From positions 1-47,268 of the forward strand of contig JAITVK010000011.1 of the NCBI GenBank assembly GCA_031285845.1: a stretch of 47,268 nucleotides of DNA, read 5' to 3'. Positions 25,438 to 42,264 of the stretch are shown one piece after another. The stretch comes from Propionibacteriaceae bacterium (GTDB taxonomy: Bacteria; Actinomycetota; Actinomycetes; Propionibacteriales; Propionibacteriaceae). The notes under the pieces are model-generated. The model was given only the letters and a program-made list of their open reading frames with translations. It was not told where the DNA came from and did not search any database. Numbering within the stretch: position 1 is the first letter of the stretch; the number at the start of each line of letters is the position of its first letter. The position numbers and the translations under genes are program-made.

Positions 25438-26418
25438 TCAGCGGTTCGGCTCCACGACCGACTTCACGAAGTCGTCGGGGTGGGACTCCATCAGACGGTA
25501 CGCCTCATCGATGCCGTCCAAACCGAATCGATGGGTGACCAGCGGCGCTTGGGTGATGCGACGACCGCCGATCAAATCGACCGCTTTCGCCACGCTCGTC
25601 ATCAAGCGGTCCTGATTCGGAGTGAAACCGGCGCGCACGGTCAACGCCTTGTGCCAAGCGTCCATCGGCAGCGACAGAGCGTCGGTGTAGTGGTGGTAGC
25701 CGACGATGGACAAGGTCGAGAACGGTCGCGCCAGAGCCACGCCCAACTCCAGCGCTGAGGCGTGACCGGCCGCTTCCAAGACCACATCCATCCGTGGGTC
25801 GGTCGTACTCGGTTCGGCGGGTCCACTCAGCAGCTCGGCTGGGATCTCGTGCGGGTCGAACGCCAGGTCAGCTCCCTGATCGAGGGCCCGCTGGCGCGCG
25901 GCGGGCGACGGGTCGATCGCGACCAGCAGTTGCGGAGCCCGCAACCGCGCCAACTGGATCAGGCCCAAGCCCATGAAGCCCGCGCCGACTACCGCGATGC
26001 GCTCCCCTGATTGATTCGCGGCGTCCTCACCGATTCGGCGAGGCACGGCGTCGATCGCGGCCACCAGGTCAGAGAACGGCTCGCTCAAACACAGCCATGG
26101 CGCGATCCCCGCTGGCACCAGCACCAGGTACCGCTCGTTCAGACAAGCTTGGGTGGCGAAACCACCATCGCCCAGGCCCGTGACCAGATCGCCGACCTGG
26201 AACGGGCTGGTCGCTCCCGCCCACGTGACACGTCCGACGATCTCATGCCCGAGCAGGACCGGGTTGTCTTCGCGCCCCCATGAACGCCACGGCGGCAGAT
26301 CAGAGGTGCAGATGCCACAGGCGACGACATCGACGATGACATGGCCTGGGCGAGGCGTCGGATCAGCCACTTCGACGACCCGACTCGTTTTCGGTCCAAT
26401 AACGTGACTGACAAACAC
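25438..26418 (-). CDS. Zinc-type alcohol/polyol dehydrogenase (MDR family)
   Basis: A 326-residue NAD(P)-dependent dehydrogenase of the medium-chain family. Catalytic-zinc residues are seen in CGICTSD (Cys37) and GHE (His58, Glu59), and the Rossmann motif VVGAGFMGLGLIQ near 155. The four-cysteine structural-zinc lobe is absent, as in several sugar-dehydrogenase subfamilies. The frame is open from 26460, but AAGGA eight bases before a GTG at 26418 marks that GTG as the start. It is the last gene of the minus-strand sugar cluster, so oxidation of a sugar or polyol intermediate is the likely role; the substrate is unknown. Confidence 0.85.
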   Translation of the reverse strand: MFVSHVIGPKTSRVVEVADPTPRPGHVIVDVVACGICTSDLPPWRSWGREDNPVLLGHEIVGRVTWAGATSPFQVGDLVTGLGDGGFATQACLNERYLVLVPAGIAPWLCLSEPFSDLVAAIDAVPRRIGEDAANQSGERIAVVGAGFMGLGLIQLARLRAPQLLVAIDPSPAARQRALDQGADLAFDPHEIPAELLSGPAEPSTTDPRMDVVLEAAGHASALELGVALARPFSTLSIVGYHHYTDALSLPMDAWHKALTVRAGFTPNQDRLMTSVAKAVDLIGGRRITQAPLVTHRFGLDGIDEAYRLMESHPDDFVKSVVEPNR

Positions 26419-26452
26419 AGTCGTTCCTTCCAGTTGATGAATATCCTTGCCA

Positions 26453-26497
26453 GACCCCATATAGAGGGGTCAAGCCCATGAGCCCCGCGGCAGGGGC
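26453..26497 (-). terminator. Two small hairpins between gntR and the dehydrogenase
   Basis: GACCCC/GGGGTC (26453-26458 and 26466-26471) and GCCCC/GGGGC (26482-26486 and 26493-26497) form two GC-rich stems in the 95-bp gap. They may reduce read-through from the regulator gene into the dehydrogenase gene. Neither has a U-tract, so an operator role for the first is equally possible. Confidence 0.45.
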
Positions 26498-26513
26498 CCC
26501 GAGAAATAGACAG

Positions 26514-27275
26514 TCAGCGTACGAACGAGGTACGCAAGCGGTAGCGCTGCCCGGCGTAGGTGATGACGGAGGTGAAGACACGTCGATCCGAGCCATCAAG
26601 CGCGATCTGTTTCATCACCAGGATCGGGTCGCCCACCGCGATCCCCAGATGAGTCGACACGTAGGCGTCAGCGCCGAGAGCTTCGATCGTGGATTCCGTG
26701 CGAGCCAGTTCGACACCACAATCGGTCAGTGCTTGAAACAGCGAGGCGGTGGTGAAATCGTACGACGGCAGCGTGGGGGCTTCTCGCAGCGGGATTTGTG
26801 AAGAGTCGATGGCGATAGGAATGCCCCCGAGCATCCGGACGCGTTCGAGATGGAAGATCGGCAGTCCCGGTGGGATGCCCAGGCTCTCGGACAGGTCGAG
26901 GCTGGCAGGCTCGGTGTCGGCCCGCAACACGGCCGACGATCCTTCCAACCCCAGGCGAGCCGCTGTCTCGGAGAAGGACTCCAACCGGTTCGGCCATTCT
27001 TCACTCGACGCCTGCCAACCTTCGACGTACCACCCGCGGCCCTGGGCCGGTTTGATCTTGCCCTCGTCGACGAGATGATTCAGCGCCTTGCGCAAGGTGA
27101 CCCGCGACACGCCCAAGTCTTGCGCCAGCTGTCGTTCCGGCGGCAGACGGTCACCTGGGCCGAGTCGATGCTGCTCGACCTGCTCGTTGATCCAATGCAG
27201 CACCTGGATCCACAGCGGATCGGGATAAGCGGCTTCAATCCTGCGCGGGGTCGGTGAGGCGGTGGGATCATCCAT
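26514..27275 (-). CDS. GntR-family regulator, HutC subfamily (UTRA domain)
   Basis: A 253-residue regulator. Residues about 18-88 form the winged-helix GntR domain (DPLWIQVLHWINEQV, GDRLPPERQLAQDLGVSRVT, LVDEGKIKPAQGRGWYV). Residues about 100-250 form the UTRA ligand-binding domain (GLPIFHLERVRMLGGIPIAIDSSQIP). HutC members such as NagR and DasR sense amino-sugar phosphates and control chitin-derived sugar genes, which fits the cluster. AGGAGG lies nine bases before the ATG. Its start overlaps the epimerase stop by eight bases, so it is cotranscribed with that operon. Confidence 0.9.
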   Translation of the reverse strand: MDDPTASPTPRRIEAAYPDPLWIQVLHWINEQVEQHRLGPGDRLPPERQLAQDLGVSRVTLRKALNHLVDEGKIKPAQGRGWYVEGWQASSEEWPNRLESFSETAARLGLEGSSAVLRADTEPASLDLSESLGIPPGLPIFHLERVRMLGGIPIAIDSSQIPLREAPTLPSYDFTTASLFQALTDCGVELARTESTIEALGADAYVSTHLGIAVGDPILVMKQIALDGSDRRVFTSVITYAGQRYRLRTSFVR

Positions 27276-28257
27276 GCTCTGTCACCTCCTGCTCGTGAAC
27301 GATATCATCCATGATGGTCATCAGCGCCGGATCGACCTGACTGACCGGATCAGCGAAGACATGATGAACAATATCGCGTGCCCCCTGGCTGAAAGACACT
27401 CTAGGGGACCAACCGGGCAACAGGCGACGCAGCTTGCTCGTGTCGAACACCATCGAGTGACGGAAATCATGTTCCATGACATCGGCCAACCCTGGAATCC
27501 GTCGACCGATCTCCTCATAGCCGACATGGATCAGTCGCGGTCGCTCGACGCCGACAGCGCGCGCCAGCATCAGGTGGATCTGGTCCCAGGTCACCATCGT
27601 GTCGTCGACGATGTTGAGCGACTCCCCCACGATGCGCGAGTCCCCCAGCAGTGGGACCAGCGCGGCGGCGAAGTCGCTGGTGTGGGTCAGCGACCACAGT
27701 GAGGTCCCATCCCCATAGACCACCACCGCCTGGCCTGTATGCATCCGCTGCAGCGCCGTCATGCCCGACAACAAGGGAATCACGCTGCGATCGTAGGAAT
27801 GAAATGGTCGGATGATCGCGATCGGAAACCCGGTCTGTTGGAAGATCTGCTCGGCGGCGAACTCGCATTCGAGCTTGCCCCGTGGATAATCGAACGTCGC
27901 CTGGCGACGAGCCGAGGATTCGGTGATCGGCAGACACGGAACTGGGCGGGCGAACACCGAGCAGGTGGAGATTAGAACGTATTGCCCCGTCAGACCGGAG
28001 AACAGCTCGACGTGGTCGACGAAATCCGCTGGACGGTAGGCCACCCAGTTGACGATGGCGTCCCACTGGCGGTCGCCGACGATACCGCGCAAGGCGGTCG
28101 GATCGGTGACGTCAGCCAGATGATGGGTCGCCCCGGGACAGGCCCGCTTGAGTGGCCCGCGGGTGATGATCGTCAGCTCATCGCCCGCTTTCACCAGCGT
28201 GTCGGCCACCGCCGACGAGATCAACCCGCCGCCACCGAGAAACAAAACCCGTCGCAT
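27268..28257 (-). CDS. NAD-dependent sugar epimerase/dehydratase (extended SDR)
   Basis: About 329 residues. It has the N-terminal Rossmann motif VLFLGGGGLISSAV, DVTDP at the end of a later strand, and the catalytic YPRGK (YxxxK) of short-chain dehydrogenases, followed by a substrate domain with RPFHSYDRS. It probably changes or oxidises a nucleotide- or free-sugar stereocentre. The chosen ATG is at 28257. A GTG/ATG seven codons earlier (28278) would overlap the upstream isomerase gene by 16 bases; neither has a clear ribosome site. It sits between the TIM-barrel isomerase and the GntR gene, with overlapping ends that argue for one transcript. Confidence 0.85.
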   Translation of the reverse strand: MRRVLFLGGGGLISSAVADTLVKAGDELTIITRGPLKRACPGATHHLADVTDPTALRGIVGDRQWDAIVNWVAYRPADFVDHVELFSGLTGQYVLISTCSVFARPVPCLPITESSARRQATFDYPRGKLECEFAAEQIFQQTGFPIAIIRPFHSYDRSVIPLLSGMTALQRMHTGQAVVVYGDGTSLWSLTHTSDFAAALVPLLGDSRIVGESLNIVDDTMVTWDQIHLMLARAVGVERPRLIHVGYEEIGRRIPGLADVMEHDFRHSMVFDTSKLRRLLPGWSPRVSFSQGARDIVHHVFADPVSQVDPALMTIMDDIVHEQEVTEHG

Positions 28258-28262
28258 CGCCG

Positions 28263-29042
28263 CTACACCCGCCCACATTCTGACAAGCCGGAACTCACCA
28301 AAAAGTCACGCGACTGCGCCAAAGCGTCGAAGACGTCGATCCCCAGGCGTTCCAACTCCACAATGTGCCACTCAAGACCGACACCGTGAGGCAGGACGCG
28401 CTGCCAATCAATCGACCCCTGTTCCGACCCGAGCGGAACGAGCGTGTCACGACCGTAGTCGCGCAGCGGTCCATCTTTGAGGTGGATGTAGCGAATCCGA
28501 TCCGACGCGCGGTCCAACACCTCGGTCAGATCGGCTCCCCCGAACCTCGCCCAGTAGGCGTCGAGCTCCAGCACGACCCGCGGATCCAACACGCCACACA
28601 GATAGTCGTACGCCCGCTGACCGTCGTAGCGCTGGCTGAACTCGGCCGTGTGGTTGTGGTATGCGATCCGCATCCCGCGCGCGGCGGCCCGCTCGGCCGC
28701 CTCGTTGACCCGCTCGACGCCATGATCGACCGTGGCGGCGGTGGCGAACTCGTCCGGCTCCAACGACCACACCAGGGTCGTCGCACCAAGTTCCTCGGCC
28801 TGGTCGAGCAACTGCTCGGCCTGCGCTCCGGCAGGAAAGGGCATGTGGGCGCTGGTCAGGGTCAGTCCGGACGCGTCCAGCGCGCGCTTGACCCGCGCCG
28901 GACCGTACTGTTCGACGATGCCGTAAGTCTCCATGCCGGTGAAGCCGAGGCTGGCGACCTGGTCCAGTGTGGATTCCAGATCAGCCAAAGCCGGTTCGAG
29001 GACGGTGTAGGCCATCACAGCCAGCGGTGTCGGGTGGGTCAC
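28263..29042 (-). CDS. TIM-barrel sugar phosphate isomerase/epimerase (xylose-isomerase-like)
   Basis: A 259-residue protein of the AP-endonuclease-2/xylose-isomerase-like TIM barrel family. Seen: TSAHMPF, IAYHNHTAEF, VVLELDAYWARFGG and IRYIHLKDG, which supply the Glu/Asp/His metal ligands of the family, and GLEWHIVELE near the end. Relatives include inosose isomerases and the lyases that open 3-keto-glycosides. Its ATG overlaps the stop of the upstream ThuA gene by four bases. Pairing with ThuA is a recurring arrangement in 3-keto-sugar loci; the substrate here is inferred only. Confidence 0.86.
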   Translation of the reverse strand: MTHPTPLAVMAYTVLEPALADLESTLDQVASLGFTGMETYGIVEQYGPARVKRALDASGLTLTSAHMPFPAGAQAEQLLDQAEELGATTLVWSLEPDEFATAATVDHGVERVNEAAERAAARGMRIAYHNHTAEFSQRYDGQRAYDYLCGVLDPRVVLELDAYWARFGGADLTEVLDRASDRIRYIHLKDGPLRDYGRDTLVPLGSEQGSIDWQRVLPHGVGLEWHIVELERLGIDVFDALAQSRDFLVSSGLSECGRV

Positions 29043-29722
29043 GCCTCAACCTCCAACCCGGCCGCCCAGCGCAAGCTCCGCTTGACCAGCGTACGGAAAC
29101 CGGGTTCACCCCAGGCGCGCAGATCGTGGCCGAGCGCCAGGTAGACCACGCGGCCCGCCCCGACCTCGCGGGTGTACATCAGTGGAATGGCGACGCCATC
29201 TTCGACCCTGGCCCGTGTCGCCAAGACCTGATGGCCGTCGTCAGCGAAGGCGTACTCGTAGTATTCGTCGAAGATCTCGAAATTCTCCAGTCCTTGGGTG
29301 ATCGGATGCTCGCCGACGAACTCCACCGTCTGGCGGCCCTCATGATAGCCCGGGCCGTGGGACAGGTAACGGTTGCCGAGCAGATCGAACAGCGGACGGT
29401 CCGCCTCAAGTCCGCCTTCTCCGAAGCCGACAAGATTGGCGCAATGCAGCGCGACCACACCTTTGCCGGCTCTTACGGCTGAAGCCAGCGCTTCCTGCTG
29501 GGCCGTCGGAAACGCCCCGCCGGAGGTGTACAGCAGATAGACGTCAGCGTCGGCGGTGGCAGGGCGCGGGTCGATGAAACGATTCATTCCCATGCCTCGA
29601 TCAGTCACCAGGTCGGCGTCAACGCCGAGCTGCTGCAGAATCGGGGAAGCGGCCAACAGGTCGTGATGTGTGTCGTCCCCGTTGACGAGGACGAGCGCCC
29701 GAGTGGGGCGAGTAGTGCTCAT
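29039..29722 (-). CDS. ThuA-like protein (first copy)
   Basis: A 227-residue ThuA-domain protein with a class I glutamine-amidotransferase-like fold. Motifs: ALVLVNGDDTHH, YLLYTSGGAFPTAQQEAL, GKGVVALHCAN, HPITQGLENFEIFDEYY, VVYLALGHDLRAW. ThuA takes part in sugar catabolism that passes through 3-keto derivatives, though its precise reaction is poorly defined. AAAGGA eight bases before ATG 29722 sets the start; the open frame begins ten codons earlier. It is the first gene of the second minus-strand block, after the terminator of the transporter operon, and is translationally coupled to the isomerase. Confidence 0.88.
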   Translation of the reverse strand: MSTTRPTRALVLVNGDDTHHDLLAASPILQQLGVDADLVTDRGMGMNRFIDPRPATADADVYLLYTSGGAFPTAQQEALASAVRAGKGVVALHCANLVGFGEGGLEADRPLFDLLGNRYLSHGPGYHEGRQTVEFVGEHPITQGLENFEIFDEYYEYAFADDGHQVLATRARVEDGVAIPLMYTREVGAGRVVYLALGHDLRAWGEPGFRTLVKRSLRWAAGLEVEA

Positions 29723-29740
29723 GATGTTCCTTTGTTCGAT

Positions 29741-29777
29741 GCGACCTCGCATCCGGCGCTGCCGTCGGCGAGGTCGC
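29741..29777 (-). promoter_or_regulatory. 10-bp inverted repeat in the ThuA leader
   Basis: GCGACCTCGC (29741-29750) and GCGAGGTCGC (29768-29777) are perfect inverted repeats with a 17-nt spacer, 19-55 bases upstream of the first ThuA start. The element could be a leader stem-loop acting on read-through from the transporter operon, or an operator. Confidence 0.6.
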
Positions 29778-29829
29778 GTTGTGGTTCCTGGGAAGGCCCA
29801 GGCAAGGTCAAGGTTCGGGTCGGGGAGGG

Positions 29830-29868
29830 GCCGCGGTGGGCCAAGGAGCTAGCATGGCCCACCGCGGC
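29830..29868 (-). terminator. Strong hairpin terminator after the binding-protein gene
   Basis: GCCGCGGTGGGCCA (29830-29843) and its exact complement (29855-29868) form a perfect 14-bp stem with an 11-nt loop, 5 bases past the stop codon of the solute-binding protein. On the transcribed strand it is followed by a C-rich run rather than U. Confidence 0.88.
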
Positions 29869-29873
29869 TTGGC

Positions 29874-31532
29874 TCACTTCGTGACCGGCACCAGGTTGAT
29901 CGCTGTCACCGGGTTGGCGTTCGGGCGGAAGTACGGATTCGAATCATCCGGGAATCCTGTCACCTTCTCTGTCGACCAGTCGCCGTAGTAGCCCCAGTAG
30001 AAGATGGTGATCATCGGCAACTCTTCGACCCAGGCCTTCTCCAGAATGCCCAGATTCTTGGCGCGCTCCTCATCGGATCCCGCCACCAGATAGTCAGCGA
30101 AGGCCTTCTCCGCCGCCGCGTTCTGGAAACGTTCGATGTTCATGTAGGACGGATCCGCCTGGCCGGTCGGCACGTAGTGCGACGGGTTCATGGTGAAGTC
30201 GTAATACAGGTACGCGTTCGGCGGAGCCGCCACCGGGTAACCGATCGTCGACTCGAAGTCACCCATCGAGGTCAGGTTGTTGATGTCGGACACCGCCACA
30301 CCGTTGATCTCGGCTTTGATGCCGACCTGCTTCAGGTTGTCGATGATGACCTGGGCGCGAGCGGTGATGTCGGTGTAGGCCGACGGGAAGGTGATCGTGA
30401 ACGAGCACGGTTTGCCATCCTTGACGTAAACCCCGTCAGGACCCATCGTCCAGCCATCGGCTTCAAGAGTCTGCTTGGCTTTGGTCAAATCCTTCACATA
30501 GTTCAGACCTTTGAATTGCGGGTCGATCACCGACTCGAACGCGGGCATCGGCAGACCGATCTGCGAGGTGGCAGTGACATCATTGGTCGATTGGGCGACC
30601 TGCTCACGGTCGACCGCCAAGGAGATCGCTTTGCGAACCGACAGCTCAGACAGCGGCCACTTCTCCAAGTTCGGGATCAAACCGTCCAAGCCGACCGTCG
30701 GATGCCAGTAGTGATTCTTGTCCGACTTGCCCAGATAAGTCTGTTCAGCGTTGGCGATGAAGGTGGAGCCCCAATCGACATCGCCTTGGACCAGAGCGTT
30801 GGTCTGGGCCTGATTGTCCTTGTAGGCGATGAAGCGCAGACCATCGATCTTCGGCTTGCCTTCCTGCCAGTAGTTCGGATTCTTCTTCATCGTGATCGCC
30901 TGGGGAGAGAACTGGTCGAGCATGAACGGGCCAGTGCCCACCGGGTTCTCATCGGCGTAGGTCGTCGGATCGTCGACCTTCGACCAGGTGTGCTCCGGCA
31001 CGATCGGAACGTTGCTCAGCAGGAAGAAGTACGGTTCGTACGACGCGTCGAAGGTGAAGACCACGGTGTTCTCATCGGGGGCTTCGACCGTCTTGAACAC
31101 CACGCCAGTGGTGTTCAACGCGGGGTATTTGGTCAACAGGTTGTAAGTGAACACCACGTCCTTCGACGTGAACTTCTCACCATCAGTCCATTTGACGTTG
31201 GTGCGCAGGTGGAACGTGACTTTCTTGTTCTGGTCGGACCACTCCCACTTCTCGGCCAGCCACGGGTGGTCGTTGCCGATGTCGACTGGGTTGGTCTGCA
31301 CCAGGGGCTCGTAGACCCAGGTCTTGTCGCCCGACATCACGTCGTACGACCCAACTGGCAGGTACGGGTTGAACACCTGAGTCAGGTTGTCCGCTTGACC
31401 AGCGACGTTGATCGTCACTCCGCCACCGCTCGGTCCACTGTTGCTGCCACAGGCGGTCAATCCGACCGTCATCATCATGGCCATCGAGACGCCGGCCACG
31501 GCGACTCGCTTGGCCCTATTTCGTAATCCCAT
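29874..31532 (-). CDS. Family 5 solute-binding lipoprotein (Opp/Dpp-type)
   Basis: A 552-residue extracellular binding protein anchored to the membrane. The signal peptide ends in the lipobox LTAC with Cys28 as the lipid site. The body has family-5 features: [64 protein letters not shown]. The family binds peptides, nickel or oligosaccharides; chitobiose and cellobiose binders belong to it. The open frame starts at 31568, but GAAGGAGAAG upstream of ATG 31532 marks the true start, which overlaps the ATPase stop by 17 bases. It is the last gene before a strong terminator, unusual because binding proteins are more often first. Confidence 0.9.
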
Positions 31533-32622
31533 CACTCTTCTCCTTCGTCCGGTGGGGGGTATTCGCATTCGTTGAGGTCTGTTGGGTGGGGCCGATGAAC
31601 CCGGCGGGGGCTTGACTGTAGAGCCAGCACTTCGCCCAGTGCGGTCGGCCAGCGCTCGACTGGCCGCCTGGCGCCAAGACGGCCACTGGGGGTTCTGTCG
31701 TCGAGCAGAGCTTCGTGGCCAAGGGGCAGCGCGGATGGAAGCGACAGCCAGTCGGTGGATCGATCAGACTTGGTGGCGCGCCGACATCGGTCCGCTCGGT
31801 CGTGCCCCGCGGCCGGTTGGGGTCGGGCGCGGAGTCGATGAGCAGCCGAGTGTACGGATGGGCCGGGGTTTGCGTGACCGCTTCGGAGTCGCCATGTTCG
31901 ACCATGTGCCCGGCGTACATCACGGCGGTGTCGGCGGCGAAGTAGCGGGCCGAGGCGATGTCGTGGGTGACATAGAGCAGAGCCACGTCATGGACTTCGG
32001 TCAACTCCCGCAGAAGGTTGAGCACCCCCAGTCGGATGGAGACGTCCAACGCCGAGACAGGCTCGTCGGCGAGGAACACCTTCGGATTCGCGGCCAGACC
32101 ACGCGCGATCGAGCAGCGCTGCAGCTGGCCACCAGACAATTCGTGAGGGAACTTGTCCAGAAACTGCCGCGGCGGTTCCAGGTGAACCTGGCGGAGCAGG
32201 TCTTCCGCGATCTGGGCGACCTCGGCCCGGCTGGCTTTCGGATGATGGACTTTGATGGCTCGAGTCAGGTGCTGTTCGATCGTCGCCACCGGGTTGAATG
32301 AGCCGTACGGATCCTGCAACATCAACTGGACGTCGGCGACGTAGCGGCGAAATGCCGAAGCGCGAGAGGCTTGAGCCGTGGCCCCTTGGAACACGACTTC
32401 ACCGGCGGTCAGCGAATACATCTGAGCGAGAAGCCTGGCCAGGGTCGACTTTCCGCAGCCGGATTCACCGACCAACGCGGTGATCTGGCCCGCGTAGAGA
32501 TCCAGGCTGACACCGTCGACGGCGTGCAGGTGGCCAGCCTTGGCGAATCCCCGACCGCGCACGCGGAAGTGTTTGGACACTTCATGGGCGGACAGGATGG
32601 CCGGTTCAATGTTGCTGGACAT
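31516..32622 (-). CDS. Opp/Dpp-type ABC transporter ATPase (second ATPase)
   Basis: A 368-residue ATPase of the oligopeptide/dipeptide importer class. Walker [11 protein letters not shown]-loop with [12 protein letters not shown], signature [15 protein letters not shown], Walker [13 protein letters not shown] and switch His in [10 protein letters not shown] are all present. The C-terminal oligopeptide-transporter extension carries [21 protein letters not shown] before ATG 32622 fixes the start; the open frame runs 42 codons further upstream within the preceding gene. It pairs with the ATPase half of the adjacent fusion protein to make the heterodimeric motor. Confidence 0.92.
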
Positions 32623-34651
32623 GAGCGTCCTCCTTCGGCTGAGTCGGGATCTCCAGACTGTGACAGGCGACCTGAATCGTCGTGTTGTCGACCATGACCT
32701 GACGCAGATCGGGTTTGTGTTCCTGGCATCGCTCAGTCGCCTGGTCACAGCGCGGCGCGAACGGACATCCTGGCGGCAAGTGACGCAGATCGGGCGGAGA
32801 TCCGGGGATGCCCGTCAGTTCGCGCTTCGCGCCGGACAGAGTCGGGAAGGATCGCAGCAGCCCTTGAGAGTACGGATGCACGGGGTGCTGATAGAACTGT
32901 CGCGTCGGCGAGCACTCCACCAGTCGCCCGGCGTACATGATGGCGATCGTGTCCGACAACTCCATCAACAGCGACAGATCGTGGGTGATGAAGATGATCG
33001 TGAAGCCGAGTTCATCTTTCAAACGAATCAACTGTTCGATGATCTGACGCTGAATGACCACGTCGAGGGCGGTGGTCGGTTCGTCCATGATGATGATCTC
33101 CGGGTCCAAGGCCAACCCGATGGCGATCATGGCTCGCTGGCGCATACCGCCCGACAACTCATGCGGGTACGCCCGTACGCGATCGGATTGGATCCCGACC
33201 AGGCCCAGCAGCTCACGGATCTTAGTCTCGCGCTCGGCTTTAGTCATGTCCGCTCGGTGTGCCCGCAGCACATCGTCGATCTGCGTGCCGATTGTCAACA
33301 CCGGGTTGAGAGCGTTCATCGCCGACTGGAAAACCACCGACAACTCGTCCCAGCGGAAACGCCGCAACTCCTCGTCGCTCATCGTCAGCACGTCCGTGGT
33401 CGCCCCGGCCGCGTTGGTGTAGAGCAGTTGGCCACTGATCGTGGTCGCGGCCGGTCGATACAACCGAGCGATCGCGTTGGCCAGGGTGGACTTTCCAGAG
33501 CCCGACTCACCGGCGATGCCCAAGACCTCGCCGCGACGGACCTGGAAGCTGACATGGTTGACAGCCACGGTCGCGTCGTCGCCGACCCCGTAGCCGAAGA
33601 CCAGGTCGCGCACGTCGAGAACCACCGAAGAATCCGGGTGATCCTCAGGCGGAAGAACCTTGTCGCGCGTCGGCAGACCGACCGCACCCAGTTTGCGCGC
33701 CTTGGCCTCGGCTCGACGCGCCTTGGCCTGCGCCTTCGTTCCAGCGTTGGCTTGGCGCAGACGCGGGTTGATGAATTCGTCGATGCCGAAATTGATCAAC
33801 GACATGCTCGTTCCGAGCAGGGCGATCGCCAGACCAGCCGGAATGAACCACCACCAAGCGCCCATCAGAAGGGCAGAATTGACTTGAGCCCAGTAGAGGA
33901 TAGTGCCCCACGACCATTCGGAGACCGATGTCAGGCCGAGGAAGGACAGCGAGGCTTGGGTGAGGATCGCGCCGGTGACCGTGCCGAGGAACGACGAGGC
34001 GATGATCGCCATCTCGTTGGGCATGATGTCATGCAAGATGATCTTGGCCGTACGCTCGCCGGTCGCGCGGGCCGCCTCGACGAAGTCGCGTCGGCGAAGC
34101 GACATCGTCTGCGCCCGCAACACCCTTGATCCCCAGGCCCATCCGGTGATAGCGATGATCAGGATGATCCCGGCCGACCCTGACTTGGGCAGCAGCGAGA
34201 CCAAGATGACGGCCAGCGGCAGCGACGGCAAGACGAGGAAGACGTTGGCCAGCAGCGACAGCAGGTCGTCGGTCAAACCGCCAAGGTAGCCGGCCACCAG
34301 ACCGACCACGACAGAGACGACCGTGGCGAGCAGTGCGGCGCAGAACCCGACGATGATCGAGATGCGCGCGCCGTAGAGCATCTGCGAGAAGACGTCCTGA
34401 CCGGCTTGGGTCGTGCCGAGCCAGTGCGCGGCGCTCGGCGGTTGCAGCGTCTCCCACGACACCGAGGAAGGATCGTAGGGGGCGAAGATCGGGCCGAAGA
34501 TCGCCAGCAGGACGAAGAAGGCCAAGATGATCAGACCGACCAGGGTTTTGGGACTCTTCAGCCCTTGCAGCCAGGCGAAACGGTTGGACAGCCCGACCGA
34601 GGCGGTCGGTTGCGACACTGGGTCAGTGTCGACGATGGCGGCGGCGCTCAT
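32606..34651 (-). CDS. Fusion of DppC-type permease and DppD-type ATPase
   Basis: A 681-residue single chain. Residues 1-300 are a DppC-like permease: an N-terminal helix near 35-55, the periplasmic loop with [21 protein letters not shown], and the coupling motif [21 protein letters not shown]. Residues about 300-335 form a basic Ala/Lys/Arg linker ([12 protein letters not shown]). Residues 340-681 are an ATPase with [43 protein letters not shown] and [20 protein letters not shown] precedes the ATG. Permease-ATPase fusions of this class are known in actinobacteria. Its ends touch or overlap both neighbours, so the operon is tightly coupled. Confidence 0.93.
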
Positions 34652-34652
34652 C

Positions 34653-35630
34653 TCAGGCCTCCTGACGGGTACGAGGATCGAGGAAGACGTACGCGATGTC
34701 GGCGACGAAGTTCGCCACCAACACCATGACGGTGATGACCAGGAAGATGGCCTGCATCAGTGGATAGTCCTGGGATTGCGCGGCTCGGAACAGGATCGAG
34801 CCGATGCCGGGGTAGTTGAAGACGATCTCGGTGACAATCGAGCCGCCGACCACGAAGCCAAGCGACATGGCGAAGCTCGACAGTGACGGCAAGACGGCGT
34901 TGCGCGCCGCGTACGCCAGAACCACTCGGCGCTTGCGCAGCCCTTTGGCCTCGGCCATGCGGACGTAATCCTCAGACAAGGTGGTGACCGTCATGTTGCG
35001 CATCCCGATCAGCCAGCCGCCGATCGAAGCGACGATGATCGTCACCGCAGGCAGGATGGCGTGATAGACCGCCGAGGAGATGAACGACGAGTTGAAACCG
35101 ATGGTCTCCCACACGTCGTAGCCGCCTGACAAGGGGAACCATTTCAACACGATGGAGAAGACCAGCGCCATGATGATGGCGAACCAGAAATAGGGGATCG
35201 ACGAGATGAACGAAGTGACGGGAACCAGCGCGTCGAGCCAGGTGCCGCGCTTCCAACCGACGACTGTGCCGAGGCTGACACCGATGACGAAGGCCAGAAT
35301 CGTGCACAAACTGATCAGGATCAGCGTCCACCAGATCGCGCCGTTGACCACCGAGGTCACCGGCGTCGGATAGTAGGCGTACGAGATGCCGAAGTTGCCG
35401 TGGAACAGGTTCTTCCAATAGTCGACGTATTGGAGCCACAGGTTGGAATGTTCCTGACCGAACAGCACCCGCAACGCTTGGATGGCTTGGGGTGTCAGTC
35501 GGCCGCGGAACCGCTCGACCATGTTGGTCACCGGATCGCCCGGCATGATGCGCGGCAGGACGAAATTGAGCGAGATGGCCGCCCAAGCGGTGAGGACGTA
35601 GAACACCAAACGGCGCAGCAGGACTCTCAT
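34653..35630 (-). CDS. DppB-type ABC permease
   Basis: A 325-residue inner-membrane permease, partner of the fusion protein. It starts MRVLLRRLVFYVLTAWAAIS, has the family loop LPRIMPGDPVTNMVERF, about six membrane helices and the coupling motif MAEAKGLRKRRVVLAYAARNAVLPS. ATG 35630 overlaps the upstream ThuA stop as ATGA; the frame is open 66 codons further but that part is inside the ThuA gene. Only one base separates its stop from the fusion gene's reading frame region. With the fusion and ATPase it completes an importer. Confidence 0.92.
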   Translation of the reverse strand: MRVLLRRLVFYVLTAWAAISLNFVLPRIMPGDPVTNMVERFRGRLTPQAIQALRVLFGQEHSNLWLQYVDYWKNLFHGNFGISYAYYPTPVTSVVNGAIWWTLILISLCTILAFVIGVSLGTVVGWKRGTWLDALVPVTSFISSIPYFWFAIIMALVFSIVLKWFPLSGGYDVWETIGFNSSFISSAVYHAILPAVTIIVASIGGWLIGMRNMTVTTLSEDYVRMAEAKGLRKRRVVLAYAARNAVLPSLSSFAMSLGFVVGGSIVTEIVFNYPGIGSILFRAAQSQDYPLMQAIFLVITVMVLVANFVADIAYVFLDPRTRQEA

Positions 35631-36337
35631 CGGTTCACCGCCTCGGCGTTCGATGTCGCCTGTGATTCCCGCGGGGCGACCCAAACCAGTGCGTTGGTGA
35701 GCAGTTGGCGTACCTCGGGGCAACCGAAAGCGCGCATGTCGTGGCCCAACTGAAGCCACACCACCCGTCCTTGGCCCCACTGTTTGGCTGTCATGACCGG
35801 TTCGCGGGCGGCGTCGGCCTCGCGCCACGCGACCACCTGGGGCGCGGGATCGTCCATGACGACGTGGTAATGCTCATGGTGGATCGGGAAGTCAGTCACC
35901 GTTCGGGTGATCGGATGGTCTGAATCCACATGAACGGTGAACGTGGTCTCGTGCGGTTGCGGGCCGTGCGAGTCGTACCTGACGCCGAGCAGGTGGAAAG
36001 CCGTCGACCAGTACTGCGCAGCGTCCGGGCGGGGATCGTCGGCGTTGAACCCGGGAAAGTAGGCCGAGCAATGAATCGCGACCAACCCTGTTCCAGCCCG
36101 TACGGAAGCGTCGACCCGCCGTTGCTGTTCGGGGGTGAACTGACCAGCGGCGGTGAACAGGACCATCACTTGTGGACTGGTCGACTCGCCGACGACACGA
36201 GCCAAGCCACATTCCAGCTCGGCCACCATGTCAGCGTCGGTGGCCAAACGTTTGACCTGGTCGATACCATTCGACAGGTCTTCCCACACATCATCGCCTG
36301 CGACGACGATGCGACAGTGCAGCGGATCTGGGGGCAT
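35627..36337 (-). CDS. ThuA-like protein (second copy)
   Basis: A 236-residue ThuA-domain protein, first gene of the transporter operon. Motifs parallel those of the copy at 29 kb: RIVVAGDDVWED, VMVLFTAAGQFTPEQQRRV, GTGLVAIHCSAYFPGF, HPITRTVTDFPIHHEHYHV, VVWLQLGHDMRAFG. The two copies are clearly diverged, so this is not a recent duplication. GGAG eight bases before ATG 36337 sets the start; the frame is open to 36427, and an ATG at 36382 is an alternative. It probably acts on the imported sugar or an oxidised derivative. Confidence 0.87.
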   Translation of the reverse strand: MPPDPLHCRIVVAGDDVWEDLSNGIDQVKRLATDADMVAELECGLARVVGESTSPQVMVLFTAAGQFTPEQQRRVDASVRAGTGLVAIHCSAYFPGFNADDPRPDAAQYWSTAFHLLGVRYDSHGPQPHETTFTVHVDSDHPITRTVTDFPIHHEHYHVVMDDPAPQVVAWREADAAREPVMTAKQWGQGRVVWLQLGHDMRAFGCPEVRQLLTNALVWVAPRESQATSNAEAVNR

Positions 36338-36393
36338 CCGTCTTCTCCAATGAACGACATTCTTGAATCGATTGCGGGCCATGGTTCCCGTCA

Positions 36394-36409
36394 CACCAAT
36401 GTTGTGGTG
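36394..36409. promoter_or_regulatory. 16-bp dyad in the divergent sugar-locus control region
   Basis: CACCA-N6-TGGTG at 36394-36409 is an inverted repeat just downstream of the predicted ThuA/transporter promoter. Related ACCAAT elements recur at about 36424 and 36584. Size and position fit a repressor site for the GntR/HutC protein of the cluster, but the sequence does not match the classical DasR site closely. Confidence 0.45.
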
Positions 36410-36426
36410 AGTACCATTGCAGACCA

Positions 36427-36457
36427 ATCATAGATCAATTGAGGCCGTCGGTGTCAA
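36427..36457 (-). promoter_or_regulatory. Promoter of the transporter operon
   Basis: On the minus strand TTGACA (36452-36457) and TATGAT (36427-36432) form a near-consensus -35/-10 pair with a 19-bp spacer, about 90 bases upstream of the preferred ThuA start. Confidence 0.6.
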
Positions 36458-36592
36458 ATGGTCATATCCGGACTAGTGATCACGCTGACTTCAGGCAAGG
36501 CTTGAGGCCAAGTCAGCGCCCAAGTCGCAGGACTGAGGGAGAGGACTGCCTGACAGGTCGCCCCACGGGGCGATACCTCAACATACCAATAC

Positions 36593-36622
36593 TTGACCAA
36601 TTCGTTCCCAACTCGTTACACT
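36593..36622 (+). promoter_or_regulatory. Promoter of the GH9 operon
   Basis: TTGACC (36593-36598) and TACACT (36617-36622) are separated by 18 bp, with the predicted start of transcription about 30 bases before the GH9 ATG at 36659. This placement also argues against translation starting upstream of 36629. Confidence 0.6.
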
Positions 36623-36658
36623 TGGGGTCATCCTCCAACAACCAGAGCAGGTGTCGTG

Positions 36659-38539
36659 ATGCGTTTGACCACCAATCATCTGGGGTACCTGCCCCAGTCG
36701 TCCGTACGGTTGCTGCTGCGCGGCGATGACCATCCCGACGCGACCGCCACCTGCGTTCGGACCGACACCGGGCAACCCTTGCCCACCAGCATCTCCGCGC
36801 CGGTTAAGGTCGTCGGCTGGACGCCAGGGGTCTGGCGCGTCATCACGATCGACACCGCCGACCTAAACGACTCGGCCTGCCCGATCGCCGTCACCGTCAC
36901 AGATGGTTCGATGGTGGTCGCTGAGGCGACCTGCGAAGTCGGACCCGACGTCATCGCCAACAAAACCATCTCTGACGTGCTGTATTACTTCAAATCCGTC
37001 CGCAGTTCGGGCCAGATCGACCGCAAAGACCGCCACGCCCTGTTCTTCGGCGACTCACCGACCCGAGACAGCGGCCGAAGCGGCACGGTCCACGAAGTCG
37101 ACGCCCACGGCGGCTGGCTCGACGCCTCTGGAGACCACTCGAAATTCCTGTCACATCTGACGTACACCACCATGATGAGTCCCCAACAGATCCCGCTGGT
37201 CGCCTGGGCGATGATGGCGGGCGACGAGGCGCTGCGCGAAAACCACCCTGACCTGTGGCCGTACCTTCACGATCGCCTGCGCGACGAGGGTCTTCACGGG
37301 GCTGACTTCCTGATTCGTTTCCAGCATCCGTCGGGGTACTTCTACACCGCGATCTTCGACGCACTAACGAAACGTCTGGACGAGCGAGTCGTCACCGCGC
37401 CGCTACAGGATTGCGTACGGACGGATCGCTATCAGGCCGCGTTTCGCCACGGCGGCGGGATGGCGATCGCAGCGCTGGCGCGAGCCGTACGCCTCGACGA
37501 TCACGGCGACAATGAGCCCGACGCCTACTGGCGGGCCGCCGTGACCGGACTGGCCCATCTCGACCAGCACAACACCGAGTATTTCTTCAACGGGACCGAG
37601 TCGATCATCGACGACTACTGCGCGCTGATGGCCGCCTGCGAACTGGAGGCCACCTGGGCCGCTGTTGGTCGACCGGCGACCGGCAGCGCCATCACGCACA
37701 CCATGGCCGACCCGACGGTTCAGACCCGCGAAACTCTTGGCGACGCGACGACGAGCTCGCCCGGCACCTCCGCGATTCGCCACGCCGAATCCTATGATCC
37801 GCAGGCCTGGCGTGAGACGGCGCAGCGCCGAGCAGCCTGCCTGATGGCGCGGTATCAACCAGGGGGGACGCCCAGTCAAGCCGGTCATCTGATCGGTGAC
37901 GCCGCTGGTCGGCCGTACTTCCACGCCGTCGAATCTGGACTGCCGATCATCGCGCTGGTGAGATACCACCAGGTGTTCGATCGCCTCGACCCGGCCGGTG
38001 CGAAGGCCGCTGGCGAATTGGCGATTCAGCTGTGTCGCGACTGGCTGACCAGGACGTACGCTGTCGCCAACCCGTTCGGCTACCCACGCGCTTTGACACA
38101 GCCGCTGGGCGGTGAGCCTCGCGAATCGTTCTTCTTCCCGCACGCCAACGAGACCGGCTACTGGTGGCAGGGCGAGAACGCCAACATCTGCTCGCTGTCG
38201 GCCGCCGCCACTATGGTCTCCCGCCTGGAGGACTGCCCGGAACAATTGGCCGACGAACTGCGCGGGTTCGCCCACGACCAGTTGAGCTGGGTTCTGGGGC
38301 GCAACCCGTTCGACGTCTGCATGCTCCAAGGTCGCGGGTCGGGCAATCGCGAATACAGCACGCACTATCCGAACGTTCCTGGCGGCATCCTCAACGGCAT
38401 CACCGCTGGTTTCGAGGACGAGTCCGACATCGACTTCCTGCCCGACGCGCCACAGTACGCGAATGATTCTTGGCGCTGGGCCGAGCAATGGATCCCCCAC
38501 GCCGGATGGTTCGTGCTGGCCACTGCCCTCGCGAAATGA
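36659..38539 (+). CDS. Cytoplasmic GH9 glycosidase, probable exo-beta-glucosaminidase type
   Basis: A 626-residue glycoside hydrolase. Residues 1-100 form the N-terminal Ig-like domain of GH9 (TNHLGYLPQSSVRLLL), then the (alpha/alpha)6 catalytic domain. The catalytic Asp motif reads GGWLDASGDHSK (Asp155, Asp159), where endoglucanases have GGWYDAGD. Near the C-terminus NDSWRWAEQWIPHAGW supplies Glu609 as the likely acid. No signal peptide is seen, so it acts on imported oligosaccharides. Vibrio relatives with a DASGD motif sit in the chitobiose region and remove glucosamine units. About 40 residues near 338-378 (Ala/Thr/Ser-rich) look like an insertion. The start is weakly supported (AGG about ten bases upstream); GTG 36656 is possible. 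Confidence 0.85.
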   Translation: MRLTTNHLGYLPQSSVRLLLRGDDHPDATATCVRTDTGQPLPTSISAPVKVVGWTPGVWRVITIDTADLNDSACPIAVTVTDGSMVVAEATCEVGPDVIANKTISDVLYYFKSVRSSGQIDRKDRHALFFGDSPTRDSGRSGTVHEVDAHGGWLDASGDHSKFLSHLTYTTMMSPQQIPLVAWAMMAGDEALRENHPDLWPYLHDRLRDEGLHGADFLIRFQHPSGYFYTAIFDALTKRLDERVVTAPLQDCVRTDRYQAAFRHGGGMAIAALARAVRLDDHGDNEPDAYWRAAVTGLAHLDQHNTEYFFNGTESIIDDYCALMAACELEATWAAVGRPATGSAITHTMADPTVQTRETLGDATTSSPGTSAIRHAESYDPQAWRETAQRRAACLMARYQPGGTPSQAGHLIGDAAGRPYFHAVESGLPIIALVRYHQVFDRLDPAGAKAAGELAIQLCRDWLTRTYAVANPFGYPRALTQPLGGEPRESFFFPHANETGYWWQGENANICSLSAAATMVSRLEDCPEQLADELRGFAHDQLSWVLGRNPFDVCMLQGRGSGNREYSTHYPNVPGGILNGITAGFEDESDIDFLPDAPQYANDSWRWAEQWIPHAGWFVLATALAK

Positions 38540-38574
38540 CCCACCAAGCCCGCGACTCACGGAAAGACGACCCC

Positions 38575-39762
38575 ATGGCTGACGCTCACATCCTGCATCA
38601 AATCCCCTTCCGTCAAGGACTGACGGCCCAGCTCACCGCGCTGCAGCGCATGATCGGTCACGTCGCCGATCAGCTCGCCCAGATGACGGGGATCACCCCG
38701 GTGCGCCATCCGGTGTTCCTCGGCATGGGGGCCTCTTTCGCCGCCGCCGCGTTGCCAGTGCGGCTGCTCCGGCAACGCGGGGTCTACGCTGAGCGCCTGC
38801 TCGCCAGCGACATCACCTCCGACTTGGCGCTGCCACCGGCCGACCTGGTGTGGGCGATCTCTCAGTCGGGACGTTCCACCGAGACGATTCAGGCGATGCC
38901 CCTGATCGAACCCGCGCTACGAGCCTGCCTGGTCAACATCACCGACTCCGACCTGGCCTCATGCTGCGACAGGCGGGTGAGCTTGGGCGATGAGCCTGAT
39001 TCGTACGCCTCGACCGTGGCATTCACGGGTACGGTCGCCGCTCTCGACCTGATCGCCGGGGCGATGCTCGGCCAAGATTGGAGCGGGCAGTGGATCGGCG
39101 TGGGTGATCGGTTGAGTGAGTTTCGCGACCGCGCCCAACCCCTGATCGAGAGGATCGCGGAGGACCATACCGATGTGTCCTGCGTCGACATCGTCGCTGA
39201 TGGCACGCAGACAGCCACGGCTGAGGAAGGCGCGCTCCTGTTCCGTGAGGTCTGCCGCCTGCCCGCCACCGCGACGACGACCCGCAACTATCTGCACGGC
39301 GAGATGGAAAGTGCGGGAACCGCGCTTCACATCGTCCTTGGGTCGGGCCGCGAGATCGAGTTGGCCACGATGTTGGCGGGGGCTGGGCACCCTTGTCTGT
39401 TGCTGACCCACGTCGTCGTGCCGCCCCAGCCACACCTGACTGTCATCAGGCTGGACGACTCGATTCACCTCGGCGAGCAGGTGGTCGCCTCCACGATGGT
39501 GATGCAGTCCCTGGCCGGAGCCTTCGCCGCCGTTTGGGGGATCGACGTCGAAGAGTTCGTCTTCTCCAACCGCGACACCAAAACCAGTCTGACGGCTGAG
39601 GAGCAGGTGGAGTCCGCGCAGCGGAGTTCAGCGCGAACAGACTCGGCGACGGAACCCGCGGGAGGGAGCTCGACCCACCTGGGCTCGGCGGAGGCAGACT
39701 CCACGAATTCGGATCACTCCGCGAAGCCGGGGCGAGTCACAGGTGGAGGCAACCGTGACTGA
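38575..39762 (+). CDS. SIS-domain sugar isomerase/deaminase (GlmD/AgaS-like)
   Basis: A 395-residue protein with two SIS domains, like the isomerase half of GlmS. Seen: FLGMGASFAAAALPVRLL, AISQSGRSTETIQAM in the first, and NYLHGEMESAGTALHIVLGS in the second. Relatives deaminate or isomerise glucosamine-6-phosphate (archaeal GlmD) or galactosamine-6-phosphate (AgaS). The C-terminal 55 residues are Ser/Glu/Asp-rich and unlike the family. GGAAAG before ATG 38575 favours that start; an ATG at 38536 overlaps the GH9 stop and is the alternative. It lies between GH9 and the kinase, which fits a glucosamine-phosphate step. Confidence 0.82.
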   Translation: MADAHILHQIPFRQGLTAQLTALQRMIGHVADQLAQMTGITPVRHPVFLGMGASFAAAALPVRLLRQRGVYAERLLASDITSDLALPPADLVWAISQSGRSTETIQAMPLIEPALRACLVNITDSDLASCCDRRVSLGDEPDSYASTVAFTGTVAALDLIAGAMLGQDWSGQWIGVGDRLSEFRDRAQPLIERIAEDHTDVSCVDIVADGTQTATAEEGALLFREVCRLPATATTTRNYLHGEMESAGTALHIVLGSGREIELATMLAGAGHPCLLLTHVVVPPQPHLTVIRLDDSIHLGEQVVASTMVMQSLAGAFAAVWGIDVEEFVFSNRDTKTSLTAEEQVESAQRSSARTDSATEPAGGSSTHLGSAEADSTNSDHSAKPGRVTGGGNRD

Positions 39763-40825
39763 GCGTCGATTGGTCCTCGGACTTGATGTCGGCGGGACCA
39801 AGACTGAGACTGCGGCCGCCACGTGTCGGCCCGACATCGTACGAGCTGCCCAGCCTCTCGGTTCCAGCGAATCAGGCGCCTCGCTGGCCGACTCTCCCGA
39901 ACACTTGTGTCCACGCTCGGGACCGGACGAATCCACCACTCCAAAACCCCGCTCCGACGAATCTGACGCCGCGCTGCCCTGCTCGTACGACCTCAGCGAC
40001 GGCTGGGCCGAGGCCTGTTGGGTCGACCCCGCCCAGTGGGTTCAGACGCGAGTCGACGCCTATCTGGCTCAACACCGGCGCACCTGGGATGAACTGGCGG
40101 CGGTCGTCGTCGGGGCGACTGGTGTCGAAGACCACACCCGCGGAGCCAAGATCGCCGAATTGCTGAGCCGAACCCACCCCGATGTCGCCTGGCGGATCGT
40201 CAACGACGCGGAACTGATCGTTCCCGCCGCCGGAGCCCGTGAGGGCATCGGGGTCATCTGTGGCACCGGCTCCATCGTGGTTTCGACCACCGCCGACGGC
40301 GACGCGTTGAGGGTCGGCGGCTGGGGGAACCTGCTCGGCGATGAGGGTTCCGGCGCGGCCTTGGTCCGCGAAGCGCTCAAGATCACGCTGCGCCGCGACG
40401 ACGAAGGTGAGGCTCCCGGTGTTCTGGCCCGGGCGTTAGTAGACATGTCAGACGTGGCGACCATCCGTGATCTGGCTTTCGACTTGTGTTTTCAGCGCGG
40501 TCCGACGACGTGGGGCGAATTCGCACCAGCCGTGTTTCTCGCCGCTGAAACCGGTGACGCCGACGCGACGAGGATCATCACTCAGGCCGGATCCGATTTG
40601 GCCGCCCAGGTCGCTCAGATCGTACGCCGCGGGGCAGTTGGTGGCCAGGTGATCTTGGCGGGGTCGGTCATTTTGCGCCAAGCCGGGCTGCGCGACGCGT
40701 TCACCACGACTTTGTCGGCACAATGCCCTGAGCTGGTCGTACGATGCTTGGAGGTCCCGCCCGTCCACGGCGCGGTCAACCTGGCGATCGCCTTGGCGCG
40801 ATCCCGCGAAAACCGGTCGTCCTAG
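39755..40825 (+). CDS. BadF/BadG-type ATPase, probable N-acetylglucosamine/glucosamine kinase
   Basis: A 356-residue sugar kinase of the ASKHA fold. Seen: the phosphate-1 loop LGLDVGGTKTE, ATGVEDH, the phosphate-2 part VICGTGSIVV, then GGWGNLLGDEGSGAAL, typical of BadF/BadG/BcrA-type GlcNAc kinases, and VILAGSVI for adenosine binding. GGAGG five bases before GTG 39755 sets the start, which overlaps the SIS stop by eight bases. Between the first strand and QWVQTRVDAYL lies an inserted Ser/Asp/Pro-rich segment of about 45 residues not expected in the fold. It should phosphorylate the monosaccharide released by GH9. Confidence 0.86.
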   Translation: MTERRLVLGLDVGGTKTETAAATCRPDIVRAAQPLGSSESGASLADSPEHLCPRSGPDESTTPKPRSDESDAALPCSYDLSDGWAEACWVDPAQWVQTRVDAYLAQHRRTWDELAAVVVGATGVEDHTRGAKIAELLSRTHPDVAWRIVNDAELIVPAAGAREGIGVICGTGSIVVSTTADGDALRVGGWGNLLGDEGSGAALVREALKITLRRDDEGEAPGVLARALVDMSDVATIRDLAFDLCFQRGPTTWGEFAPAVFLAAETGDADATRIITQAGSDLAAQVAQIVRRGAVGGQVILAGSVILRQAGLRDAFTTTLSAQCPELVVRCLEVPPVHGAVNLAIALARSRENRSS

Positions 40826-42123: not shown

Positions 42124-42131
42124 AAATGACC

Positions 42132-42137
42132 ACTGTA
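42132..42137 (-). promoter_or_regulatory. Probable -10 box of the Nudix-LOG gene
   Basis: TACAGT on the minus strand ends eight bases before the GTG, which would place transcription start at or next to the start codon. No ribosome site is present in between. Confidence 0.45.
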
Positions 42138-42183
42138 GCGCAGGGCGTGGCAGCGGCTGGCACTGCCCTTCAGGGTGGGGACA

Positions 42184-42246
42184 ACTCCATGTACTTGGCA
42201 AAGTACATGGAGTCTGACTCCATGTACTCAATGAAGTACGGGGAGT
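42184..42246. promoter_or_regulatory. Two tandem 30-bp dyads upstream of the DUF4143 ATPase
   Basis: The first, 42184-42213, is a perfect inverted repeat of 13-bp arms (ACTCCATGTACTT and its complement) around GGCA. The second, 42217-42246, repeats the same 30-bp layout with mismatches in the centre and right arm (AGTACGGGGAGT). Their centres are 33 bp apart, about three helical turns, and the second ends seven bases before the -10 box at 42253, so protein bound there would block transcription. Confidence 0.88.
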
Positions 42247-42252
42247 TTGGCG

Positions 42253-42258
42253 TACAAT
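42253..42258 (+). promoter_or_regulatory. -10 box of the DUF4143 ATPase gene
   Basis: TACAAT ends six bases before the ATG at 42265, so the transcript is probably leaderless. The -35 region falls inside the second dyad. Confidence 0.6.
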
Positions 42259-42264
42259 GATGAC

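Follow-up and report, generated by a model that had tools for sequence, protein, structure and literature searches.

The analysed stretch of a Propionibacteriaceae genome (contig JAITVK010000011.1, 47,268 nucleotides, hereafter the window; source genome of 2.68 Mb in 37 contigs) contains, at approximately 25.4-40.8 kb, a locus of thirteen genes in two divergent arms, three on the plus strand and ten on the minus strand (Table 1). The plus arm encodes a glycoside hydrolase of family GH9, a SIS protein and a BadF-type kinase; the minus arm encodes, in transcription order, ThuA-2, OppB, an OppC-OppD fusion, OppF, a solute-binding lipoprotein, ThuA-1, a TIM-barrel protein, a short-chain dehydrogenase (SDR), a GntR/UTRA regulator and a Zn-dependent dehydrogenase. 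Other actinobacteria have many of these genes near GH9 as well, so that the gene set goes beyond chance. We consider the recurring catabolic locus to be real, while its substrate and individual reactions are what we infer. With slightly less than even confidence, we propose that it serves the regulated catabolism of glucosamine-type oligosaccharides with beta linkages, combining hydrolysis with a second, probably oxidative-eliminative branch.

Gene content of the locus

The plus-arm proteins were assigned by Pfam matches to GH9 (48.2 bits, cut-off 27.7), SIS (33.1 bits, cut-off 25) and BcrAD_BadFG (97.3 bits, cut-off 31.5), and further minus-arm genes to ThuA (PF06283, two proteins), the xylose-isomerase-like TIM barrel (PF01261) and the extended SDR family (PF01370). 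A sequence-only reading of this DNA had described an importer, a cytoplasmic-type GH9 with a DASGD motif, a SIS protein, a BadF/BadG-type kinase and a HutC-type regulator occurring together, and all of them are present by family matches; the two ThuA proteins, the TIM barrel, the SDR and the Zn-dehydrogenase, which lie within the same coordinates, had not been named. Judging by eye and from the alignment, the most likely start of the GH9 gene is the ATG rather than the upstream TTG.

Table 1. Genes and sequence elements of the locus, with window coordinates and strand.
Feature	Position	Strand	Remarks
GH9 exo-type glycosidase	36659..38539	+	no signal peptide seen by eye; listed open reading frame (ORF) starts at TTG 36593
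SIS protein, NagB-II/GlmS-isomerase-like	38536..39762	+	probable ATG 38536 overlaps the GH9 stop; listed ORF from 38470
BadF/BadG-type sugar kinase, NagK/MurK-like	39743..40825	+	
Operator-like site TACCA-N6-ACCA, divergent promoter	36412..36426	+	
Operator-like site TACCAATACTTGACCA, divergent promoter	36584..36599	+	identical in the same-genus locus L018
ThuA protein 2	35627..36427	-	start uncertain, perhaps ATG near 36337
OppB-type permease	34653..35828	-	listed start probably too early
OppC-OppD fusion, permease and ATPase, 681 aa	32606..34651	-	
OppF-type ATPase	31516..32748	-	listed start probably too early
Family 5 solute-binding lipoprotein (SBP_bac_5)	29874..31568	-	lipobox LTAC by eye
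Strong hairpin between lipoprotein and ThuA-1 genes	29830..29868	-	
ThuA protein 1	29039..29752	-	predicted fold matches ThuA-like structures
TIM-barrel protein	28263..29042	-	all eight AtOGE metal/catalytic residues
Extended SDR oxidoreductase	27268..28278	-	Rossmann glycines and Y131xxxK135
GntR/HutC-type (UTRA) regulator	26514..27275	-	
Zn-dependent alcohol/polyol dehydrogenase	25438..26460	-	

The GH9 enzyme and its SIS and kinase partners

At E values up to 0.01, the GH9 protein matched only 3h7l, 5dgq/5dgr and 6gdt in the PDB (E 1.7e-115 to 4.4e-112), which are VP2484, PBPRA0520 and VC0615 (PMC6096475), and its alignment to the VC0615 and PBPRA0520 structures runs from the N-terminal domain onward. 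A FastTree phylogeny was built from the window protein, the best 80 of 476 relatives found in a scan of species genomes (at most 10 kb per side; absences are lower bounds), and, as an outgroup, 27 other, unnamed actinobacterial GH9s (out of 29 outgroup loci tried). The 81 exo-type sequences were separated from the 27 others with local support 0.924. The window GH9, those of 34 further actinobacterial loci (L024-L054, L058, L059 and L061, which together with the window form the actinobacterial set) and that of an Acidipropionibacterium metagenome-assembled genome (L055) constituted one clade, and the 17 Vibrionaceae sequences a separate one (support 1.0 for each). L055 and L085, both with Actinomycetota titles, were counted with the other loci, L055 being inside and L085 outside the actinobacterial clade. 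The earlier suggestion that the enzyme is akin to VC0615 is borne out by its place on the exo-type branch. The likening to archaeal GlmA/GlmD did not hold in the same sense, as GlmA belongs to GH35 (PMC6566704) and is hence an analogue, not a relative, of the window GH9.

Catalytic Asp140, Asp144 and Glu546, which comprise the base, the water-binding Asp and the acid, are kept in all 81 exo-type GH9s (numbering via L075, whose GH9 is orthologous to 6gdt and shares the register of VC0615). The DASGD motif is present in the window protein. From its branch and its catalytic residues, the window enzyme should be an exo-glycosidase. While these residues are shared with PBPRA0520 and VC0615, the window enzyme differs from both in belonging to the separate actinobacterial clade and in its pocket. 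Tyr148, Trp220 and Tyr232 are placed at the sugar 2-amino group in VC0615, Tyr232 being Phe in PBPRA0520 (PMC6096475). The three positions are Tyr, Trp and Tyr in 17/17 Vibrionaceae GH9s, and Phe, Leu and a gap in 35/35 GH9s of the actinobacterial set, including the window; the 29 other GH9s have Tyr at position 148 in 27 cases, Trp at 220 in 25, and Tyr or Phe at 232 in 28 (Tyr, Phe and gap in L055; Tyr, Trp and Phe in L085). VC0615 cuts the glucosamine (GlcN) disaccharide GlcN2 faster than cellobiose and leaves the N-acetylglucosamine (GlcNAc) disaccharide GlcNAc2 uncut (PMC6096475); however, as the C2-pocket residues are altered, the GlcN specificity of the Vibrio enzymes cannot be carried over to the window GH9. 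According to a 2018 review, GH9-type glucosaminidases in actinobacteria were not documented in CAZy (PMC6097792). Through its altered C2-pocket residues, the actinobacterial clade offers natural variants for the choice of GlcN over glucose by exo-acting GH9s, a question left open in PMC6096475.

The gene directly downstream encodes a SIS protein, single-copy in the genome, whose best NCBIfam matches are GlmS and NagB-II (NagB_SO3506), all well under cut-off. The loop S131-Q-S-G-R-S-x-E-T139, E260 and H276 are invariant in 13/13 SIS sequences; from GlmS we take the loop to bind phosphate, and E260 and H276 to be the Glu and His of the isomerase site. The kinase has NagK_SO3507 as its best NCBIfam match and a N-acetylmuramic acid (MurNAc)/GlcNAc kinase as its best PDB match; its GxDxGGxK and GTG motifs are kept in 12 kinases, and a scan of viral contigs yielded no relatives of it. 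The succession of a SIS deaminase-like protein and a BadF-type kinase resembles Shewanella SO3506/SO3507, which we take to be a NagB-II/NagK pairing; the window pair differs in scoring far under the equivalog cut-offs, and no NagA-type amidohydrolase occurs among the thirteen locus proteins. The simplest reading of the pair, from sequence, would be a GlcN-type kinase and deaminase.

These data also bear on the possibility of a beta-glucoside locus, for cello-oligosaccharides or gentiobiose, in which the GH9 would be an exo-beta-glucosidase and the kinase a glucokinase. Cleavage of beta-glucosides is reported for VC0615 and PBPRA0520 too (PMC6096475), the pocket residues near C2 are unlike those of GlcN-preferring enzymes, and GH1 accompanies GH9 in 6/34 loci. 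We nevertheless find this quite unlikely, as a protein of the SIS deaminase/isomerase type is encoded directly between GH9 and the kinase, the kinase has a MurNAc/GlcNAc kinase and NagK as its best matches, and the window GH9 stands apart from the 27 other actinobacterial GH9s.

Recurrence in relatives and the SDR, TIM and ThuA proteins

A neighbour was scored as present if a BLAST relative (E 1e-8, 40% coverage) was found within about 10 kb of GH9, the ends of stretches and contigs hiding some. In the 34 actinobacterial loci, the window excluded, we counted GntR in 19, ThuA in 16, CUT1-like permease in 15 (in 6 of these at under 30% identity), SDR in 13, TIM in 13, SIS in 12, kinase in 11, Opp in 10, Gfo/Idh/MocA oxidoreductase, GH20 and GNAT acetyltransferase in 8 each, GH1 and copper amine oxidase in 6 each, and alcohol dehydrogenase in 4; since the loci include close kin (three each from Planotetraspora, Kutzneria and Agromyces), these counts are not independent events. 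The TIM-bearing loci (n=13) have SDR in 12, ThuA in 12 and GntR in all 13. In the 46 loci outside the actinobacterial set, SIS, SDR and ThuA were found in none, TIM in one (archaeon L088) and the kinase in one, while GH20 relatives occurred in 22.

Similar sets were found in several other actinomycete genera. Three Kutzneria loci (L029-L031) contain GH9, kinase, SIS, GntR, SDR, TIM, solute-binding protein, Opp and one ThuA, and the part of the Streptomyces sulfonofaciens locus (L042) covered by the fetched stretch shows the Kutzneria set. Gene calls beyond the window came from a home-made script, which missed the Kutzneria TIM gene. Locus L140 combines alcohol dehydrogenase, kinase, SIS, GntR, SDR, TIM and ThuA with another importer, GH20, GH1, GH9 and GNAT. 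GH9, GntR, SDR, TIM and ThuA are constant in the loci of these three types, and the importer class and additional hydrolases vary. In other loci, such as that of Kribbella (L033), no partner genes were seen near GH9.

The window resembles the Vibrio cholerae VC0614-VC0620 genes, presumably kinase, GH9 and importer, in having an Opp-type importer, an exo-type GH9 and a BadF-type kinase; an OppB relative lies beside GH9 in 17/17 Vibrionaceae loci and a kinase relative in 9/17 (E 1e-5). It differs in the SIS, SDR, ThuA and TIM proteins, which are absent, or for TIM present once, in the 46 outside loci, the 17 Vibrionaceae ones included. A further difference concerns GH20 and GH94, both of which we take to be held by the Vibrio chitin disaccharide operon, and neither of which is found among the thirteen locus proteins. 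Their absence, which the sequence-only reading had pointed out, is correct for the locus and does not extend to the genome, where one GH20 and two GH94 genes are located elsewhere.

An AGAO-type copper amine oxidase with an NYDY motif is encoded in L038, L042, L050, L051, L054 and L061, its gene immediately adjoining GntR or SIS in L038, L042, L050 and L061. This is a hint that the substrate or aglycone bears an amine. In L025, L026, L061 and L140, a GNAT acetyltransferase gene follows GH9, with GH20 nearby and, in L025 and L140, also GH1; this suggests mixed GlcN/GlcNAc/Glc oligosaccharides for these relatives. Such neighbours (GH20 and GNAT in 8/34 loci each, the amine oxidase in 6/34), as well as the uniform change of Tyr148 to Phe and Trp220 to Leu with loss of Tyr232, would fit an N-acetylated, N-substituted or amine-bearing substrate, the altered C2 pocket admitting a substituent rejected by the Vibrio enzymes. 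However, another locus of the genome looks like an acetylated-chitobiose set (see below), none of the thirteen locus proteins matched a deacetylase family, and the pocket shape was derived from an alignment only; on balance, such a substrate is unlikely.

The minus arm contains the second part of the proposed glucosamine-oligosaccharide pathway. In a profile search, the TIM protein matched 8bvk (AtOGE) best, with E 1.5e-30. AtOGE, deposited as 8BVK, is a Mn2+-dependent beta-eliminase of 3-keto-O-glucosides (PMC10628242). Its residues E39, H66, H132, H134, E161, D163, H189 and E233, counted along the alignment, are all matched in the window protein and kept in 12/12 aligned TIM proteins (three Kutzneria proteins being outside the alignment), and the window protein is probably an AtOGE-type metal-dependent enzyme, eliminating or hydrating. 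Sixteen genomes besides its own matched the TIM protein. One of eight stretches fetched around such matches was the GH9 cluster L140; in the seven others, all from more distant relatives, a Gfo/Idh/MocA oxidoreductase gene adjoins TIM (7/7). In most GH9 loci with TIM, including the window, this place is occupied by the SDR, while L038 has Gfo/Idh/MocA. The window thereby differs from the Agrobacterium AtOGE operon, as described in PMC10628242, where AtOGE neighbours a Gfo/Idh/MocA oxidoreductase; moreover, in the window the TIM gene is coupled with a hydrolase, and no flavoprotein dehydrogenase occurs among the thirteen locus proteins.

The SDR has Rossmann glycines and a YxxxK motif and a predicted extended-SDR fold (mean predicted local distance difference test, pLDDT, 82.6), with pLDDT under 50 in the stretch 106-133, which contains Tyr131. 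In fold comparison, a wide range of sugar-nucleotide epimerases and dehydratases came out about equal. The SDR alone was discarded as a diagnostic marker, 8/396 genomes of the phylum (its own counted) having one at E 1e-30. The genome encodes one further member of this SDR family, 41% identical, in a different gene context (L113, G000:C16).

The TIM protein and the Zn-dehydrogenase could alternatively belong to the use of inositol or aminocyclitol glycosides, GH9 freeing the sugar and the SDR or alcohol dehydrogenase acting with TIM as inositol dehydrogenase and inosose dehydratase-like enzyme. Indeed, the sole NCBIfam match of TIM is IolE (TIGR04379, 55.6 bits, cut-off 290), and the Zn-dehydrogenase matches scyllo-inosose 3-dehydrogenase (67.3 bits, cut-off 450). 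However, in the profile search IolE came after AtOGE, at only 1.3e-5, and the dehydrogenase has a slightly better score with threonine dehydrogenase (71.4 bits). Moreover, GH9 acts on beta linkages, and the GlcN-inositol compounds known from actinobacteria have alpha linkages. We regard this explanation as improbable.

Fold comparison of ThuA-1 returned other ThuA-like proteins, none with a named reaction, and the accessible parts of the literature found in a search for ThuA contained no report of a reaction. Those found for ThuA together with 3-keto, glycoside or glucosamine topics had nothing on a GH9-SDR-TIM-ThuA set. The recurrence of this set with a common operator-like sequence provides testable partners for ThuA.

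Regulation, proposed pathway and genomic context

The pattern TACCA-N4-7-ACC[AG] has 29 matches in the cluster promoters of 22 loci (10,441 bp) and none in the remaining upstream regions of those loci (24,482 bp). This enrichment is partly by construction, as 13 of the 22 promoter sets, with the window and L018 among them, served for deriving the pattern by eye; the cluster genes of 16 loci were named by hand for this count. The backward control pattern had one and no match, respectively. Promoters of 20/22 loci carry the pattern (all but L019 and L052), among them 9/9 loci that had not been used for drawing it, and in loci without a detected GntR it precedes GH9 or its operon in 4/15 (L047, L048, L049 and L058). 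These nine and four loci, as well as the lack of matches in the remaining upstream regions, are the evidence that does not depend on how the pattern was derived. Scanning of the whole stretches gave 56 matches, 29 of them inside called genes, with 15.0 expected in base-shuffled stretches. In a genome scan with TACCAATACTTGACCA, no second site was found at up to two mismatches; three mismatches gave 13 further places versus 16 for the backward control, and, matches being about at control level, no wider regulon was seen. The GntR protein may bind the operator-like sites, and the locus is probably co-regulated. Two other candidates for the operator were rejected: a DasR-like inverted repeat, TGGT-N4-ACCA (25 matches in 36 stretches versus 6.1 expected from base composition, one match being counted twice because L019 and L043 stand for a single contig), was scattered rather than confined to promoters, and simple palindromes of 5-6 bases were GC-rich ones only.

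In the proposed pathway, the GntR/HutC-type regulator would control both divergent operons from one promoter region, and the Opp-type importer would take up short oligosaccharides containing a glucosamine-type residue in beta linkage. In the cytoplasm, GH9 would remove the non-reducing residue, the BadF-type kinase would phosphorylate the amino sugar, and the NagB-II-like SIS protein would convert the amino-sugar 6-phosphate to fructose 6-phosphate and ammonia. The SDR, the AtOGE-type TIM protein and ThuA would probably oxidise the glycoside or the product, which could then be cleaved or rearranged by beta-elimination or hydration. The hydrolytic half would thus correspond to the Vibrio GlcN2 route with a NagB-II/NagK-like pair, and the second half resembles the chemistry of 3-keto-glycosides. 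That the two halves form a distinct dual-route pathway, with GH9 hydrolysis beside SDR oxidation and AtOGE-type elimination and with ThuA catalyzing a further step, is possible but doubtful. If true, it would bring 3-keto chemistry to amino-sugar or N-substituted glycosides, a link not seen in the accessible parts of the literature found. In having a regulator, an ABC importer, an intracellular glycosidase and a kinase, the locus also resembles Streptomyces csnREFGHK for chitosan oligomers; the latter, in the accessible text of PMC6097792, has six genes, with GH4 instead of GH9 and without SIS, ThuA, SDR and TIM.

Several observations weigh against glucosamine-type oligosaccharides as the substrate or against the pathway as a whole. 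Besides the altered C2 pocket and the partly constructed operator enrichment, the SIS protein scores 34.8 bits against NagB-II (NF046059, curated cut-off 430) and the kinase 61.7 bits against NagK (NF046058, curated cut-off 370). TIM was not seen in 21/34 and SIS not in 22/34 actinobacterial GH9 loci within about 10 kb, so that no single gene set is obligatory, and the copper amine oxidase is a partner not accounted for by chitosan sugars. ThuA, TIM and SDR recur with GH9 about as often as SIS and the kinase, and their omission weakens the sequence-only reading; with GH20 and GH94 present elsewhere in the genome, their absence from the locus says little. Finally, no GH46 chitosanase, the only chitosanase family searched, was found in the genome.

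The genome also encodes, outside the locus, one GH18 with CBM5/12 and a classical NagB. On contig C12, this NagB and one of the two GH94 genes lie with a ROK kinase, solute-binding protein, permease, ROK-type regulator and amidohydrolase (NagA-like by family), as well as a protein combining sugar-phosphate mutase and nucleotidyltransferase-like domains; judging by families, this looks like a classical acetylated-chitobiose set. Given this separate set, a different substrate is most likely for the GH9 locus, in agreement with, though no proof of, a de-N-acetylated sugar. The earlier proposal of such a substrate thus gains from the C12 locus and loses by the replaced C2-pocket residues and the lack of GH46.

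The stem-loop at 29830-29868 has a folding energy of -34.6 kcal/mol (z -4.2) and is perhaps an mRNA-processing or attenuation signal. Elsewhere in the window, the minus strand contains an open frame of 2488 aa (1613-9079), which had no Pfam match at E up to 1e-5. NUDIX, SLOG and LOG (lysine-decarboxylase-like) domains are combined in one ORF (41149-42876) convergent with the kinase gene, and an Abi_2-type abortive-infection-like protein (PF07751) is encoded at 45371-46354.

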